Source: Chitinophagaceae bacterium
GTDB lineage: Bacteria; Bacteroidota; Bacteroidia; Chitinophagales; Chitinophagaceae
NCBI GenBank assembly: GCA_025449935.1
Contig: JANWIJ010000065.1
Span: 1 to 39,470 of the forward strand
Direction: 5' to 3'
Length of the DNA: 39,470 nucleotides
A program made the translations under genes and the position numbers. The notes below the pieces were generated by a model, which did not search any database, was not told the DNA's origin, and worked only from the letters and a program-made list of their open reading frames with translations. This document shows, piece by piece, positions 1 through 17,381 of the stretch; position 1 is the stretch's first letter; each line of letters begins with the position of its first letter.

Positions 1-126
1 ACCGGCTTACTTGCCCCTGAGCAATGACCTGCATCAGCCGGGTGCAAAGGTTTTGCTAAAGTGCTCCGTAAACCAGCCTGGCAATCCGGTAGGCAGGTTC
101 TTCGGCACGCATATTAGAAAACCCCA

Positions 127-145
127 TGTTGTGCGTTCCACAACA
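127..145. repeat. Short inverted repeat with a GTTGTGC core
   Basis: TGTTGTG (127-133) and CACAACA (139-145) form a 7-bp perfect inverted repeat around a 5-nt loop. The GTTGTGC heptamer at 128-134 also occurs at the attC-like site near 2408. It may be a remnant of the same kind of recombination site, but no longer arms were found. The rest of 1-181 shows no gene that I can support. Confidence 0.3.
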
Positions 146-181: not shown

Positions 182-568
182 TTACAGGTCTCCGAAAAAT
201 GGAATCTTCCAAAATGGCATATATTCTGTCCAACCTAAAAAGAAAGAAAATAAAGCATGAATAAAGGGTGCCGACAGGAAACTTAATATCAGATATAAGA
301 TAGTCTGTTGCTTTTTAAATGCCAATAACAGGGGTGGAAGTAAAACGGTTAGCAGCATAGGTACGGGGTAGTAAAGCCACCAGGGCAGCCCCGAGGAGGC
401 GCCATACTTTCCGAATAGCATTCCAAAGACTACAACAAGCAGTGACAAGAGAAATATTTTATTCCTTTTTAACCTGAAATCATTTTTAGGCAGGACAATT
501 CTCACGATTAAGAAAAATATCGCCATGGATGCGACGATCATAACCGGGAAATGCCATTCTGTATTCAC
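182..568 (-). CDS. Hypothetical small integral membrane protein
   Basis: This 128-residue protein is mostly hydrophobic. Membrane segments lie at about residues 9-27, 39-55, 64-84 and 90-110, with a short charged loop after the first (KNDFRLKRNK). The C-terminus is aromatic and proline-rich (WTEYMPFWKIP). I do not recognise a family. The longest frame starts with GTG at 568; an in-frame ATG at residue 10 (541) is an alternative that would shorten the first helix. It stands alone, with 107 bp to the next gene upstream. It is likely an inner-membrane protein of unknown role. The product is real on the basis of its consistent membrane pattern, not homology. Confidence 0.6.
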   Translation of the reverse strand: MNTEWHFPVMIVASMAIFFLIVRIVLPKNDFRLKRNKIFLLSLLVVVFGMLFGKYGASSGLPWWLYYPVPMLLTVLLPPLLLAFKKQQTILYLILSFLSAPFIHALFSFFLGWTEYMPFWKIPFFGDL

Positions 569-2511: not shown

Positions 2512-3912
2512 TCAATATTTTGCTTTTACACTATTGGAAAAGCTACCTGAACTTTTGTTGCCTTTATAGCTAATCTTTACTCGGTATTCTTTGCCTTGTT
2601 CAAGTTTGTCGGCATGAACTATAAGTGAGTTCAGTCCTTGTTTTGCTGACGATTTTAGTTGTCCGAGTGCTTTGTTGGTGTCAAAACCCTGGATTTCTAT
2701 TTCAACGTCCGCTTTGTCGACAAAATAGATGATTACTTCAACTTCGTTTTTCGACTTGCTAATGATGTCTCTGATGTTGTTCTCGGTTGTGATGTATGTT
2801 CTTTCTCTTTTCTTGCCTTTTTCAACTCCTTTGATTTTGGTGTATGTAATTATTCCCTGAACATTTCCAAATTCAATGAATGGCATAGGAAAGAATGGCA
2901 AAATGAAATATCTGTACGGGTCATTGGCTTTTGCCTGAACGATTTTTGAATAAGTGTTGGCTCCAACCGTATCAATAGTTACTCCTTGTAAAAAGAACTC
3001 TTTGCTTCCGTTGTTGTCAACAAGTTTAAGTTCAGTTTTGTGGTTCTTGAACGGCACAAATTGATAGCCTACGTTGTAGCCACTATCTGCCATAGAAACC
3101 AAAAAATCTTCGGGATTATCTTTAGAGCCGCTCAAATAATTGTAGCCTTCTATTTCCAACTTCAGTGCTTTGGTGTTATTTACAGTTGTGTCACCTAAGT
3201 ACTTTATATTTTTAAACTGCTTGTCTTCATATTCAGCAAGGTTTGTTGTATCGTTATACCATTTTCTTCTGTAGAACAGTTGTATTTCGTCGCCCTTTTG
3301 AATGTCGAACTTTGTTGACGCCTGGTAACTGTTTTTCAGTCCTTTAGTGATGTCATTATAATTGTCACCAAAAAGCTGCTTCGTATAAAACTGTCCATTG
3401 CTTGAAACCGCAACCGTCTGCAAGTCTGGAATAATTACAACATAGATTTCTGAATTGTCTTTCTGGTAATATCTTCTTGGTGTTTTTTCTGTCGGAATTA
3501 AACTGTCTTTTGGAAAACTATTTCGAGTTTCCATAAATTCCAATAAAACTTGTGTCGGTTTGCCGAAAAATATGGCTTGTTGCTCTTTCGCAGTTTGGTA
3601 GTTTATCTTATGAACTGTGTTTAGCTTATTGTCAAGCAACGTATAAAGTCCGTCTGCAAACGCTTCATAATAAGTTATTGAATTGTGCTTGTCTGAATAG
3701 TCTGTAAAATCTTCGGTTTGGATTTTCTTAAACTTAATGCTATTTATAATCGTGTCAGACAGGTCGCTCCTTGTTTGAAGTCCAATGAACTTATTTTTCT
3801 TGTCAAAGTAGGTGGCACGAACATAAAGTTTTGAATTAGAAAGTTCACTTCGTGTCTGTCCGAAAGTAGAAATGGTGCAAAGCAGTGAGATGGTTAGTAA
3901 TATTTCTTTCAT
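2512..3912 (-). CDS. Hypothetical secreted protein, putative cassette gene
   Basis: This 466-residue protein has a signal peptide at residues 1-19 (MKEILLTISLLCTISTFGQ) with a probable cleavage after the Gln-rich end. The mature part is polar and beta-strand-like. It contains YRRKWYND, GYNYLSG and a C-terminal segment with a fibronectin-like feel (HADKLEQGKEYRVKISYKG). The start at 3912 is preferred over the upstream frame start at 3963, because the signal peptide begins exactly there and the upstream part lies across the GTTGTGT core. No family was recognised and no enzyme motif was seen. It is likely periplasmic or surface-exposed. Base composition is A+T-richer than nadA and the genes beyond, consistent with later acquisition. 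Confidence 0.65.
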   Translation of the reverse strand: MKEILLTISLLCTISTFGQTRSELSNSKLYVRATYFDKKNKFIGLQTRSDLSDTIINSIKFKKIQTEDFTDYSDKHNSITYYEAFADGLYTLLDNKLNTVHKINYQTAKEQQAIFFGKPTQVLLEFMETRNSFPKDSLIPTEKTPRRYYQKDNSEIYVVIIPDLQTVAVSSNGQFYTKQLFGDNYNDITKGLKNSYQASTKFDIQKGDEIQLFYRRKWYNDTTNLAEYEDKQFKNIKYLGDTTVNNTKALKLEIEGYNYLSGSKDNPEDFLVSMADSGYNVGYQFVPFKNHKTELKLVDNNGSKEFFLQGVTIDTVGANTYSKIVQAKANDPYRYFILPFFPMPFIEFGNVQGIITYTKIKGVEKGKKRERTYITTENNIRDIISKSKNEVEVIIYFVDKADVEIEIQGFDTNKALGQLKSSAKQGLNSLIVHADKLEQGKEYRVKISYKGNKSSGSFSNSVKAKY

Positions 3913-4049
3913 TTTAGGGTGTCGTCTTGTATGGCACACAACACTTAAATATACGATAGTCAAGCGGCCAGTAAAAAAAGTAGAAATTGAGATTCAACTT
4001 GTTGCCATTCGCCTTGTTTATTGCAATTACAGCAAGCCAAACCATTTTC

Positions 4050-5069
4050 TCACAACCCGGCCGCCTTGCTGATCTCCAGCATCCGGTCAATCGGTCTTTT
4101 AGCAGCCAGCCGCAATTCCTCGTCCATAAAAATAGCCGGCGTTTCATACTCCATGCAGAGATATATTTTCTCCAGGGTGTTCCGCTTCATGTGCGGGCAA
4201 TCATTACAGGCGCAGCTGTTATTGGGCGGCGCGGGGATAAATGTTTTTTCCGGCGAAGCCTTCATCATCTGGTGCAGGATACCCGTCTCCGTGGCCACGA
4301 TATATGCCTGCGAAGAATCTGTTTGTGTATACTTCAGCAGGCCCGTAGTGGAACCAATAAAGTCCGCCAGCCGCAGGATGGGATCCTCGCATTCGGGATG
4401 GGCGATTAGTTTGGCTTCGGGATGCCGCACTTTTAATTTCGTTATTTTTTCCAGGCTGAATATCTCGTGCACCATACAAGCTCCGTTCCAGAGTACCATA
4501 TCCCTTCCTGTAACCTTGCTGATATAAGCCCCCAGGTTTTTATCCGGCGCGAAAATTATTTTTTGCTCTTTCGGAAAACTTTCCACGATGATCTTTGCAT
4601 TGCTGCTGGTACAAATCACATCACTCAGCGCTTTGATACCGGCGCTGCAGTTGATATAACTCACCACCACATGCCCCGGGTGCTGCTCTTTGAATCGTTT
4701 GAACAGGGGAGGCGGGCAGCTGTCGCTGAGTGAACAACCGGCTTTCAGATCCGGAATCACCACTTTTTTGGAAGGGTTCAGTATCTTGGCTGTTTCAGCC
4801 ATGAAGTGGACCCCGGCGAAAACGATCATGTCGGCTGTTGTTTTTTCCGCCTGTTGGGCCAACCCCAGGCTATCCCCGATATAATCCGCCACATCCTGGA
4901 TATCCGGCTCCTGGTAGTAATGCGCCAGTATCACGGCATTTTTTTCCTTCTTCAACCGCTCTATCTCCGCGAATAGATCCAGCGTTGGATCCAAGTTAAT
5001 ATCGAGGAACCCGTTGATGGCAAGATTTTCTTTGGCGGCAGGCAGGCTTGTGGAAGTGTCGTTGTTCAT
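4050..5069 (-). CDS. nadA: Quinolinate synthase NadA
   Basis: NadA condenses iminoaspartate with dihydroxyacetone phosphate to make quinolinate in de novo NAD synthesis, using a [4Fe-4S] cluster. From the ATG at 5069 the protein has 339 residues, the usual length. Diagnostic segments are AVILAHYYQ (45-53), [10 protein letters not shown] (65-74), [12 protein letters not shown] (86-97), [13 protein letters not shown] (106-118), WNGACMVHE (194-202) and CNDCPHM (288-294). The cluster ligands are probably C112, C198 and C291. A frame extension to 5123 exists, but MNNDTS fits the family start better. nadB and nadC are not adjacent. The upstream region is the candidate replication origin, and the promoter must lie inside its A+T-rich edge. 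Confidence 0.95.
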
Positions 5070-5126
5070 CACCAGGCTTTTTTTCAATGGAGCAATATTC
5101 AACCAACTCCAGCGATTTTTCAAAAC

Positions 5127-5545
5127 AAAATTTTTTAAACCCTGTATTAATACAATAATAGTATTAATATATATTTATAAAAAAGAGTTTATTATTATTA
5201 CAGCTGTGGATTCGTGGAAAACTCTTTTGCTTTATTCCCTGCAAAGTTATCGATTTGTGGTTATGCACATTAACGGCAGTGGAATCCACAGGTAGATTTA
5301 GCAACAGCCCTGTATTCCATAGGTATTATCCACAGCGCTGTGCATTACCGGGAAGGATAACTATTTTTCATTTTTTCAAAATCCGGGTGTGCACAGTTGC
5401 CGCATAAACCGTGAATTACCTACACCCATAATGAGTGCTGGTTGCTTTTCACCATTTGGGCTCCATGAATACTCTTTTATATTAACGTTCCACAGCGGGT
5501 TATACACAGCTATTGTAATCTGTTCACAAGCTTCCGGGGATAAAT
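5127..5545. other. Candidate replication origin (oriC)
   Basis: This is the largest gene-free stretch of the window (5070-5638). At 5127-5200 only 8 of 74 bases are G or C, which would suit a DNA unwinding element. Beside it is a cluster of DnaA-box-like 9-mers. TTATCCACA at 5326-5334 is a perfect match, and TTATGCACA (5261-5269) and TTATACACA (5500-5508) each have one mismatch. Two-mismatch copies include 5205-5213, 5282-5290, 5256-5264, 5339-5347 and 5535-5543. The five genes to the left read leftward and the first three to the right read rightward, as expected for leading-strand genes around an origin. dnaN lies 11 kb away. Evidence is pattern-based only; GC skew was not computed. Confidence 0.55.
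5205..5290. repeat. Inverted pair CTGTGGATTC / GAATCCACAG
   Basis: CTGTGGATTC (5204-5213) recurs as its exact reverse complement GAATCCACAG (5282-5291). Both are two-mismatch DnaA-box relatives and flank the TTATGCACA copy. They could be weak initiator-binding sites in the candidate origin. Confidence 0.4.
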
Positions 5546-5638
5546 AGTGGGGCCGGGACTTGATCCGGGTTATTCTTTGACCTGGAAATGCTATAAATAA
5601 GAAAGACCTAATTTTAAAGCCTCAAAAAAAATTGTCAT

Positions 5639-7798
5639 ATGAATCATCTGAAACACCTGCTGGTTGGTTTTTGTTTATTGATAGGGTCATTGGTTAAGGC
5701 GGACGAGGGAATGTGGCTCCCGCTCCTGCTACAGAAAATGAACGAGCAGCACATGAAAAGCCTGGGCATGAAGATCAGCGCCAAAGACATCTATAATATT
5801 AATACCGGCAGTTTAAAAGATGCCATCGTCAGTTTTGGAGGTTTCTGTACCGGCGAAGTGATCTCTTCAAAAGGCCTGGTGCTTACCAATCACCACTGCG
5901 GGTTTGATGTGGTGCAAAATCATTCTACCCTTGAACATAATTATATCCGGGATGGGTTCTGGGCGAAAAATAACGGGGAGGAGATCCCGGAAAAAGGATT
6001 GTTTGTAACGTTTATTGTACGGATAGAAGATGTGACCAAACAGGCGCTCAGTGGTGTATCGGTTACGATGAGTGAGAGCGAAAGACAGTCGGCAATCGAC
6101 AGGAATATCGCGGAACTGAGAAAGAACATAAAAAAAGAAAGCTACCAGGAAAATTTTGTCCGTGGTTTTTTTGAAGGCAACCAGTATTATTTATTTGTAA
6201 CGGAAACTTACAGGGATGTGCGCCTGGTGGGAGCCCCGCCGGCCGCGATCGGGAATTTTGGAAAAGACACGGACAACTGGATGTGGCCACGCCATACCGG
6301 TGATTTTTCGATGTTCCGCATCTATGCCGGCAAAGACAACAAGCCGGCTGAGTATGCCGCTGATAATGTTCCTTATGTTCCCAAACGCTCCTTGTCTATT
6401 TCACTGGACGGTGTAAAAGAAGGAGACTTCACGCTGGTATTTGGTTTTCCGGGCAGAACAATGGAATACCTGCATTCTTCCGCGGTAGATCAAACTGTGC
6501 GGGTAAACGACCCGGTAAAAATTGCTATCCGGGATAAAGCACTGGCCGTGATCGACGACTTTATGCGGAAAGATGAAACCATTAAGATCCAGTATGCTTC
6601 CAAGTATGCAGGCATCAGTAATTCCTGGAAAAAATGGCAGGGTGAAGTGCTCGGGTTAACCCAGACCAACGCGGTGGCGAAAAAGAAAATATACGAAGCG
6701 GAATTTCAAAAAAGAGTGAATGCCAGCCCGGCATGGGCCAAACAATATGGTTCACTGTTGGGGGACCTGGAATCAGCATATGCCGAGCTGGAACCGCTCG
6801 GCCGCTCCAGGGATTATTTCAACGAGATTATCAGCCGGATCGAACTGTTCACCATGGCCGCCCAGCTGAACAATGCCCTTAATGCGCAGGGAAAAAATAA
6901 TTATGATGCAACGCTGGCCCGGACAAAAGAAAGACTCAGGGACCTTTATAATGAATACAATCCCGAAGTAGACAAGAAACTTTTTGCCGTGCTGATGGAA
7001 ATGTTTTACAAAGATCAGCCCAACGAAAAAATGCCCGCGGAGTTTACGCAGCGGGCCAAAGAATCCGATTTTGACTTTGCAAAAATGGCAGAGCAGCTTT
7101 TCAAAGAAACCGACCTGGATGACGGCGAAATAATATTAAAAGCACTGGAAACCGATCCCGCAGCTTTGCTGGCAAAGCATAAGACCGATAAAGCCAACGA
7201 AGTTTACCTCGCACTCGTGACTGGTTTTTCCGCCAATACTTCAGGTAAACTGAATGAAGTGCAGGGCAGGATCAACAAGCTGCAAAGAACCTATATGCAG
7301 GCACAGATGGATGTTTTTAAAGAAAAGAAATTTTATCCCGATGCAAACAGCACGCTCCGGGTTACCTATGGCAATGTAAAAGGATACAACCCGCGGGACG
7401 CTGTCCGGTTTGATTATTATACCTACCTCGACGGGTTAATGGACAAATACAAACCGGGCGACTATGAATTTGACGTCCCGGAGAAATTGCGCACCCTGTA
7501 TCAAAACAAAGACTACGGCCCTTACGGCAGCAACGGGAAGATGCCGGTTTGTTTTATAGCCATGAACCATACCACCGGCGGAAATTCCGGAAGCCCGGCT
7601 TTGGATGCTTATGGCAACCTGGTGGGCCTGAATTTTGACCGGGTTTGGGAAGGAACGATGAGCGATATAAATTATGATCCTTCTATTTGCCGGAACATTA
7701 TGGTAGATATCCGTTATGTATTATTTATTGTGGACAAATATGCCGGGGCCGGGCACCTGGTAAAAGAGATGAAACTGGTACACCCGAAAAAGAAATAA
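5639..7798 (+). CDS. Family S46 dipeptidyl-peptidase, DPP11-like (Asp/Glu-specific)
   Basis: Exported serine exopeptidase that removes N-terminal dipeptides from peptides in the periplasm, part of amino-acid scavenging in Bacteroidota. The protein has 719 residues, the family size, with a signal peptide of about 21 residues before ADEGMWLP. The catalytic triad is visible: His in TNHHCGFD (H86), Asp in GDFSMF (D222) and Ser in TGGNSGSP (S650). Residue 668 in NFDRVWEGT is arginine, 18 residues after the catalytic serine. Porphyromonas DPP11 has Arg673 and Ser655 with the same spacing; that arginine selects acidic P1 residues, while DPP7 has Gly there. It is the first gene right of the candidate origin and is followed by a strong terminator, so it is probably monocistronic. 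Confidence 0.92.
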   Translation: MNHLKHLLVGFCLLIGSLVKADEGMWLPLLLQKMNEQHMKSLGMKISAKDIYNINTGSLKDAIVSFGGFCTGEVISSKGLVLTNHHCGFDVVQNHSTLEHNYIRDGFWAKNNGEEIPEKGLFVTFIVRIEDVTKQALSGVSVTMSESERQSAIDRNIAELRKNIKKESYQENFVRGFFEGNQYYLFVTETYRDVRLVGAPPAAIGNFGKDTDNWMWPRHTGDFSMFRIYAGKDNKPAEYAADNVPYVPKRSLSISLDGVKEGDFTLVFGFPGRTMEYLHSSAVDQTVRVNDPVKIAIRDKALAVIDDFMRKDETIKIQYASKYAGISNSWKKWQGEVLGLTQTNAVAKKKIYEAEFQKRVNASPAWAKQYGSLLGDLESAYAELEPLGRSRDYFNEIISRIELFTMAAQLNNALNAQGKNNYDATLARTKERLRDLYNEYNPEVDKKLFAVLMEMFYKDQPNEKMPAEFTQRAKESDFDFAKMAEQLFKETDLDDGEIILKALETDPAALLAKHKTDKANEVYLALVTGFSANTSGKLNEVQGRINKLQRTYMQAQMDVFKEKKFYPDANSTLRVTYGNVKGYNPRDAVRFDYYTYLDGLMDKYKPGDYEFDVPEKLRTLYQNKDYGPYGSNGKMPVCFIAMNHTTGGNSGSPALDAYGNLVGLNFDRVWEGTMSDINYDPSICRNIMVDIRYVLFIVDKYAGAGHLVKEMKLVHPKKK

Positions 7799-16077: not shown

Positions 16078-17193
16078 TTACTGGTTAAGCATCAGCGGCA
16101 TGACCAGCATCAGCAATTCTTCGTTGTCTTCCTGCTCCGAAGGTTTGATAATACCGGCCTTGGTCGGCGTAGAGAGTTCCACCACCACGTCGGCGGTGTC
16201 AGCTGCATTCAGCATTTCAATCAGGAATTTTGCATTGAACGCAATCATCAGGTCTTCGCCTGTATACTGGCATTTCATTCTTTCATTTCCTTCAAAACTA
16301 AAATCAATATCCTGTGCGGCTAACTGTAATTCGCTGCCACTGATACTTAACGCTACCTGGTTGGTGCTTTTATTACTGAACACACTCACCCGGCGCAGGG
16401 CACCCTGGAAATCATTTTTATTTACCGTTAGTTTATAAGGATTGTCAGCCGGGATCACCACTTTATAGTCCGGGAACCGGGCATCGATGAGCCGGCAGCT
16501 CATTTGGGTAGAGCCGTGTTTTACAAACAGGTGATTGCTGTTATAGCTTACGGTTATTTCATCTTCCGTATCAGGTATGGCGGCTTTTAAAAGACTCAAA
16601 GGTTTACGGGGAGCAATAAAAGAATCTGTTTTGGGACATTTTACATCTTTTCTTTTGTAACGAACCAGGCGGTGTGCATCCGTCGCTACGCACTGCAATC
16701 CCTTTTTATCAAGTTCAAAAAATACGCCGGTCATGGCCGGGCGGAGATCATCATTGCTGGTGGCAAAAAGTGTTTTATTGATGGCTGTTACCAGGGCAGA
16801 TGCGGTCATCGTAAATGAAGTGGTATCGTCTGCTGCCGGTTCTTTCGGGAAATTGTCCGGGTTTTCCCCCATCACTTTATACTTCCCGTTATCGCTGGTG
16901 ATCTCGATGCCGAAGTTCTTGTCAATATTAAACGTCAGCGGCTGGTCGGCAATATTTTTAAGGGAATCCATCAGGATCTTTGCGGGAATACAAACTTTTC
17001 CACTGTCCTTCGCTTCAATATCCAGTTGTACTCTCATCACCGTTTCGAGATCGGTGGCAACCACGGTGAGCTTATTTTTTTCCACTTCAAACAGGAAATC
17101 TTCCAGGATGGGTAACACCGTATTGGCATTGATTACACCGGCAATGTGCTGGAGCTGTTTCAATAAAGAAGAGGAGGAGGCAATGAACTTCAT
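16078..17193 (-). CDS. dnaN: DNA polymerase III sliding clamp (beta subunit)
   Basis: Ring-shaped dimer that tethers DNA polymerase III to DNA. From ATG 17193 it has 371 residues, the normal length, beginning MKFIASSSSLLKQLQHI. Typical blocks are VLPILEDFLFEV, KVCIPAKILMDSLKN, GEDLMIAFNAKFLIEML and the C-terminal LLMLVMPLMLNQ, where clamps end in a MPxR/ML-type tail. The longer frame to 17256 overlaps the probable promoter and is not used. It stands alone, away from dnaA and recF (neither is in the window), but its location 11 kb from the candidate origin is consistent with an origin-proximal region. Confidence 0.97.
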   Translation of the reverse strand: MKFIASSSSLLKQLQHIAGVINANTVLPILEDFLFEVEKNKLTVVATDLETVMRVQLDIEAKDSGKVCIPAKILMDSLKNIADQPLTFNIDKNFGIEITSDNGKYKVMGENPDNFPKEPAADDTTSFTMTASALVTAINKTLFATSNDDLRPAMTGVFFELDKKGLQCVATDAHRLVRYKRKDVKCPKTDSFIAPRKPLSLLKAAIPDTEDEITVSYNSNHLFVKHGSTQMSCRLIDARFPDYKVVIPADNPYKLTVNKNDFQGALRRVSVFSNKSTNQVALSISGSELQLAAQDIDFSFEGNERMKCQYTGEDLMIAFNAKFLIEMLNAADTADVVVELSTPTKAGIIKPSEQEDNEELLMLVMPLMLNQ

Positions 17194-17211
17194 AATAGTA
17201 ATTGAGTGGGG

Positions 17212-17242
17212 CGAAACTACTGATTTTTGTTTTACAGCCAAC
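17212..17242 (-). promoter_or_regulatory. Possible dnaN promoter
   Basis: On the minus strand TAGTTTCG (17219-17212) matches the Bacteroidota -7 consensus TAnnTTTG at all but one position. GTTG lies 19 bp upstream, as a near match to the TTTG -33 element. The start codon would be 18 bp downstream. Pattern match only. Confidence 0.35.
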
Positions 17243-17381
17243 ACTTTAAGAATCATGGTGGATTACTTGTTCCCGGTTGCCGGACCCCTGTAAACCCCTG
17301 CGGAAAATGCATCGGGAACACCCGGGTTATGCCTTGTTTCTACTACCTTCTTTAGTATCTTGCCTTTTATCAAAAACGCCT

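Follow-up and report, generated by a model that had tools for sequence, protein, structure and literature searches.

Does the gap between nadA and an S46 peptidase gene in a Chitinophagaceae bacterium contain the origin of chromosome replication (oriC)? The question arises within a contig of 39,470 nucleotides (C65, hereafter the window), which is one of 118 contigs in a genome of 3.50 Mb and for which a preliminary description had proposed a probable chromosomal origin. Our analysis strongly supports that proposal through a cluster of DnaA boxes, a minimum in GC content, a basal unwinding system (BUS), conservation of the locus, and the GC skew of relatives. Based on these elements, their conservation, their single copy, their linkage to neighboring genes and the position of the skew switch in relatives, we predict with a probability of about 95% that positions 5127-5545 are oriC.

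The intergenic gap and its DnaA boxes

Counted from the start of NadA at 5069, the gap spans 5070-5638 (569 bp) and is the longest between listed genes, with a runner-up of 264 bp, which agrees with the earlier remark that it is the only sizeable gene-free stretch of the window. Also as described, the genes on its left point left (open reading frames at 182, 676, 1336 and 2512, and nadA) and the first three on its right point right (S46, a SurA/PpiC-type isomerase and DUF2480), after which CorA is encoded leftward. Three of the five left-hand frames (182-568, 676-1071 and 2512-3963) had no match in Pfam/NCBIfam, which is a weak point of the argument from gene orientation. The dnaN gene was found at 16078-17256, about 10.5 kb from the gap. 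No dnaA gene is adjacent, as had been stated; the dnaA of this genome is on another contig (C12). Querying a plasmid collection with the gap sequence returned no matches.

The perfect DnaA box, the two single-mismatch boxes and the exact inverted pair (CTGTGGATTC at 5204-5213 and GAATCCACAG at 5282-5291) that had been proposed are all present (Table 1), and the AT tract contains exactly the 8 G/C bases reported. We compared the numbers of boxes in the gap with those in 5000 dinucleotide shuffles. The single exact box compares with 0.006 expected (28 shuffles contained one), the three boxes with at most one mismatch compare with 0.20 expected (3 shuffles reached three), and the 11 boxes with at most two mismatches compare with a mean of 2.3, a number that no shuffle reached. 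Across the whole window, 17 boxes with at most one mismatch were found versus 10 expected (4 of 100 shuffles reached 17), which is a mild enrichment and indicates that the signal is the cluster within the gap. Elsewhere in the window, 400-bp stretches hold at most two such boxes. However, two related genomes (G078 and G260) contain other 400-bp stretches with three such boxes 16-22 kb away, so box count alone is not decisive.

A predicted basal unwinding system next to nadA

The most diagnostic part of the locus, which is absent from the preliminary description, is a BUS at approximately 5127-5221. Read on the minus strand from 5222 toward nadA, two overlapping DnaA boxes are followed by a 3-bp spacer, TAATAATAATA-type triplets and the AT tract, which is the order of elements in a BUS. 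This order is reported as broadly conserved in bacteria (PMC8287927; PMC6669920), and the BUS of bacterial oriC consists, as here, of DnaA boxes that are often in tandem, a short spacer and at least three 3'-NAN-5' triplets, which are expected within 16 bp of a DnaA box (PMC8287927). In the window, four triplets follow the proximal box across the spacer. After an initial CAT (replaced by GAT in some relatives), 3'-TAT-5' predominates, whereas PMC8287927 found GAT to be the most frequent triplet. Each of the two BUS boxes has 2 mismatches, which counts against the assignment.

Table 1. Features of the nadA-S46 gap and its flanking genes (window coordinates)
Feature	Coordinates	Strand	Remarks
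nadA (quinolinate synthase), left neighbor	4050..5069	-	
AT-rich tract, predicted DNA unwinding element, 8 G/C in 74	5127..5200		GC minimum among 74-mers of the window; many of 18 genus rows share the core around AATACAATAATAGTATTAATAT
Four DnaA-trio-like triplets (TAT TAT TAT TAC on +, read 3'->5' away from the boxes)	5190..5201	+	TATTATTATTA in 18/18 genus rows
Short spacer between boxes and trios	5202..5204		equal distance in 18/18 genus rows
BUS-proximal DnaA box GAATCCACA, 2 mismatches	5205..5213	-	
Second, overlapping BUS DnaA box TTTTCCACG, 2 mismatches	5213..5221	-	
DnaA box TTATGCACA	5261..5269	+	<=1-mismatch box at +70..72 from motif in 20/30 family loci
DnaA box GAATCCACA, 2 mismatches, inverted partner of 5205-5213	5282..5290	+	
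Perfect DnaA box TTATCCACA	5326..5334	+	<=1-mismatch box at +134..137 in 10/30 family loci
Box-like TAATGCACA, facing 5326-5334	5339..5347	-	
TGTGNA half box	5388..5395	-	partly conserved
Distal element, local variant TATATTAACGTTCCACA of genus consensus CATATCCACGTTTCACA	5478..5494	+	genus loci L369-L386
DnaA box TTATACACA	5500..5508	+	<=1-mismatch box at +310..314 in 18/30 family loci (22 allowing +299)
Weak box-like CTGTTCACA, 3 mismatches	5520..5528	+	
Conserved GGGGANAAA	5536..5544	+	distal edge of footprint
S46 peptidase (Dpp7-like), right neighbor here and in many relatives	5639..7798	+	

The anatomy and conservation of the locus are observed, and from work on the BUS we infer how proteins would act on it, from DnaA binding through unwinding to firing. 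DnaA would bind the overlapping minus-strand boxes at 5205-5221, cross the short spacer onto the + strand triplets at 5190-5201, and extend as a filament toward nadA, which would melt the AT tract at 5127-5189 and allow helicase to be loaded there. The + strand boxes at 5261, 5282, 5326, 5500 and 5520, several of which are spaced by 20-22 or 44 bp (approximately two or four helical turns), may recruit DnaA and tune loading. The oriC of E. coli features an AT tract at one end and boxes in both orientations, and the gap resembles it in both respects. Unlike in E. coli, the boxes on the AT side are followed by trios here, and the neighboring genes differ. The letters of the window's BUS resemble those of the B. 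subtilis BUS, and we know of no unwinding assay in Chitinophagaceae.

Conservation and linkage of the locus in relatives

The preliminary description had proposed examining whether the locus is conserved between nadA and S46 genes in related genomes. The arrangement is kept in 17 other loci of the same genus, with S46 present in all 17 and NadA seen in 15; the two loci where NadA was not seen (L009 and L011) begin at a contig end. In an alignment of 18 genus rows, the distance between TATTATTATTA and the TGTG of the box is identical in every row. Among 294 genomes of the family (completeness filter 90, own genome included), the exact BUS pattern occurred in 65, once in each, and a control with the pattern written backwards gave 0 matches. 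The exact pattern is absent from the other 229; variants account for some of these, a minority of which was inspected. The 30 inspected loci of exact-pattern genomes all adjoin nadA, and 28 of them have S46 or PpiC across the gap. In the window's own genome (G000), the motif occurs once at up to 3 mismatches. Six further family loci from a search allowing at most 2 mismatches (L309-L314) likewise adjoin nadA.

We also approached the locus from its neighbor, using a GTDB scan with NadA from which the best 80 of at least 592 loci were kept. Of these best 80, 26 have a relaxed form of the motif no more than 350 bp upstream of nadA; 23 of the 26 belong to the first 27 loci (L062-L088), and the remaining three are L092, L132 and L136. 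Controls, for which we used the opposite strand of that stretch and 950 bases from within nadA, gave 0 matches. Genera named among the matches are Terrimonas, Chitinophaga, Niastella, Foetidibacter, Hydrotalea, Ferruginibacter, Niabella, Ilyomonas and Gynurincola. Within L062-L088, the relaxed motif is missing from L072 (Chitinophaga sp.), L075, L078 and L082 (Sediminibacterium), and no locus of the best 80 with Pedobacter or Saprospiraceae in its title has it; one of these loci (L093) includes only 71 bases upstream. No BUS was found within 350 bp of nadA in the Pedobacter/Mucilaginibacter loci; several of these (within L095-L107) share single DnaA boxes approximately 970 and 630 bp upstream of nadA. 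At the level of the class, a search allowing at most 2 mismatches matched 11 of 396 genomes (completeness filter 95), including 9 of the 15 family genomes. We do not claim the two matches outside the family (L315 and L316), which have no nadA nearby; the control pattern matched twice in one genome.

Within the genus, the motif was found at up to 3 mismatches in 29 of 42 genomes and was missing in 13. Among 28 genus loci examined, 21 adjoin nadA, 2 have S46 at a contig end, 4 have PpiC without nadA, and 1 has neither neighbor; this last locus (L348, 3 mismatches) is probably a chance match. These findings indicate that the motif occurs both without nadA and without S46. Six of the motif-negative genomes (G016, G003, G029, G034, G011 and G026) contain TAATARTAATA and a drifted box upstream of nadA, and TAATARTAATA was present in 10 of the 10 loci examined for drifted forms. 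No form of the motif was seen in the other seven (G002, G006, G008, G017, G023, G030 and G733), of which G023 also gave no match to NadA or to PpiC.

The four loci with PpiC (L324, L331, L344 and L346) belong to genomes in which a whole-genome search did not find NadA (G007, G024, G014 and G737, with completeness 94, 100, 100 and 72). Retention of the motif without NadA in these genomes argues against a control element of nadA. The four genomes measure 1.8-2.1 Mb, and the genus also has genomes of up to 5.5 Mb. They appear to have undergone genome reduction in which nadA was lost beside a retained origin.

Approximately 275-290 bp from the BUS, genus origins also feature a strongly conserved distal element of 19 bp, with the consensus TTTCATATCCACGTTTCAC and a TTTCA direct repeat 13 bp apart. 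At no more than one mismatch, TTTCAYNNCCACGTTTCAC was found at 20 places in 18 of 41 genus genomes, and coordinates put 18 of these places at the origin; controls gave 4 matches, spread over four genomes. The copy in the window has diverged too far to match TTTCAYNNCCACGTTTCAC at that threshold. The element could represent weak DnaA sites in tandem or be bound by another factor. A further reading, which we regard as speculative and rather unlikely, is that genus origins have two parts, unlike described models, with the distal element bound by an undescribed factor that controls the origin or hosting a second mode of DnaA assembly.

GC skew, alternative readings and implications

Within the window, cumulative skew reaches a low near 5 kb (-0.16) and a near-equal low at 16-17 kb (-0.15), which makes the local skew uninformative by itself. 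The whole-chromosome skew comparison that had been suggested was run in relatives, and it places a switch at or near the motif. Four of the nine single-contig genomes were used, G078, G260 and G166 (genus label g44) and G329 (g99), with 20 stretches of 18-20 kb sampled per genome. With the motif taken as the origin, the skew had the expected sign in 20, 19, 18 and 17 of the 20 stretches in G078, G260, G166 and G329, respectively, versus 4, 11, 5 and 9 with dnaA taken as the origin, which disfavors dnaA as an origin marker in these genomes. The best step fit for G078, G260 and G166 falls within the 22-26 kb that separate the midpoints of the two stretches flanking the motif. In G329, positive skew in the stretch immediately to the left moves the best switch to a position 9-178 kb leftward of the motif. 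A 2.26-Mb contig from a three-contig genome of the same genus (G302:C1) showed negative skew in 11 of 15 stretches on the left and positive skew in 6 of 7 on the right. Its best change point is offset from the motif by one stretch to the left (roughly 10-30 kb), and 4 of the 15 left stretches are not negative. This count leaves out the stretch that spans the motif (L182), as well as nine stretches of contigs C2 and C3, which were excluded because they could not be placed relative to the motif.

A single dnaA match was obtained in each of the 25 genomes searched. By the shorter way round, the distance of dnaA from the motif is 1.44 Mb in G078, 1.32 Mb in G260, 1.20 Mb in G329 and 1.77 Mb in G166. 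In one Chitinophaga chromosome labelled complete (CP079103.1; G728:C1:108782-109266, L320), dnaA matched in two pieces, one with an internal stop, which is possibly a sequencing error.

Several features that characterize a DnaA-dependent oriC are present at the locus: a box cluster, an adjacent AT-rich element and a single occurrence per chromosome (in the 65 of 294 genomes with a match). The position of the skew switch was determined in relatives only, within brackets of 22-26 kb in G078, G260 and G166, and proximity to dnaA, which is common for oriC and is not required, was not found. We considered whether the conserved elements are instead regulatory DNA of nadA or S46, such as an NAD-responsive or DnaA-regulated promoter. 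A gap between divergent genes must contain their promoters, and a conserved GCAATATT block lies near nadA. However, PpiC replaces S46 as the neighbor in many relatives, the motif stands beside PpiC in the four genomes without a detectable NadA, which disfavors a nadA regulator in particular, and the motif lies at or near the skew switch in relatives, all of which makes regulation of either gene a very improbable account of the conservation.

The several boxes of mixed orientation, together with the other three-box stretches 16-22 kb away in two relatives, would also fit a cluster that titrates or reactivates DnaA in the manner of datA or DARS. Sites of this kind are not known to require an AT tract with trios, whereas the gap contains one, and the motif is single copy where found and sits inside the 22-26 kb bracket in three single-contig genomes; we consider a datA/DARS-like role highly unlikely. 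The origin might instead lie nearby, with the gap as a mere neighbor, for example around dnaN, which is a classic neighbor of origins and is present 10.5 kb to the right. The skew resolves the switch to 22-26 kb at best, and the switch falls left of the motif in G329 and slightly so in G302. Yet boxes, trios and AT tract come together at the gap, once per matching genome, and the rest of the window contains no 400-bp stretch with more than two boxes of at most one mismatch, which leaves very little weight for an origin beside the gap rather than in it.

Our assignment of oriC to the gap rests on the same kind of evidence as origins predicted by Ori-Finder and DoriC, namely skew, a box cluster, trios and an intergenic place, and origins are not always near dnaA (both from PMC10225481). 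An oriC and its trios are known kinds of element; what appears to be new is the location beside nadA across Chitinophagaceae with dnaA far away. We did not find an origin at nadA in this family in titles and abstracts of the open-access literature, nor in the accessible portions of PMC7111523 and PMC13342612, and complete genomes may have DoriC predictions there. For a large family in which dnaA misleads as a marker, the assignment gives the position of the origin. The motif also provides a DNA tag that remains recognizable when a genome is fragmented, with uses in orienting assemblies and in estimating growth rate from coverage. Furthermore, the family lends itself to a natural test of the model for the BUS, as the boxes drift in reduced genomes and the triplets stay.
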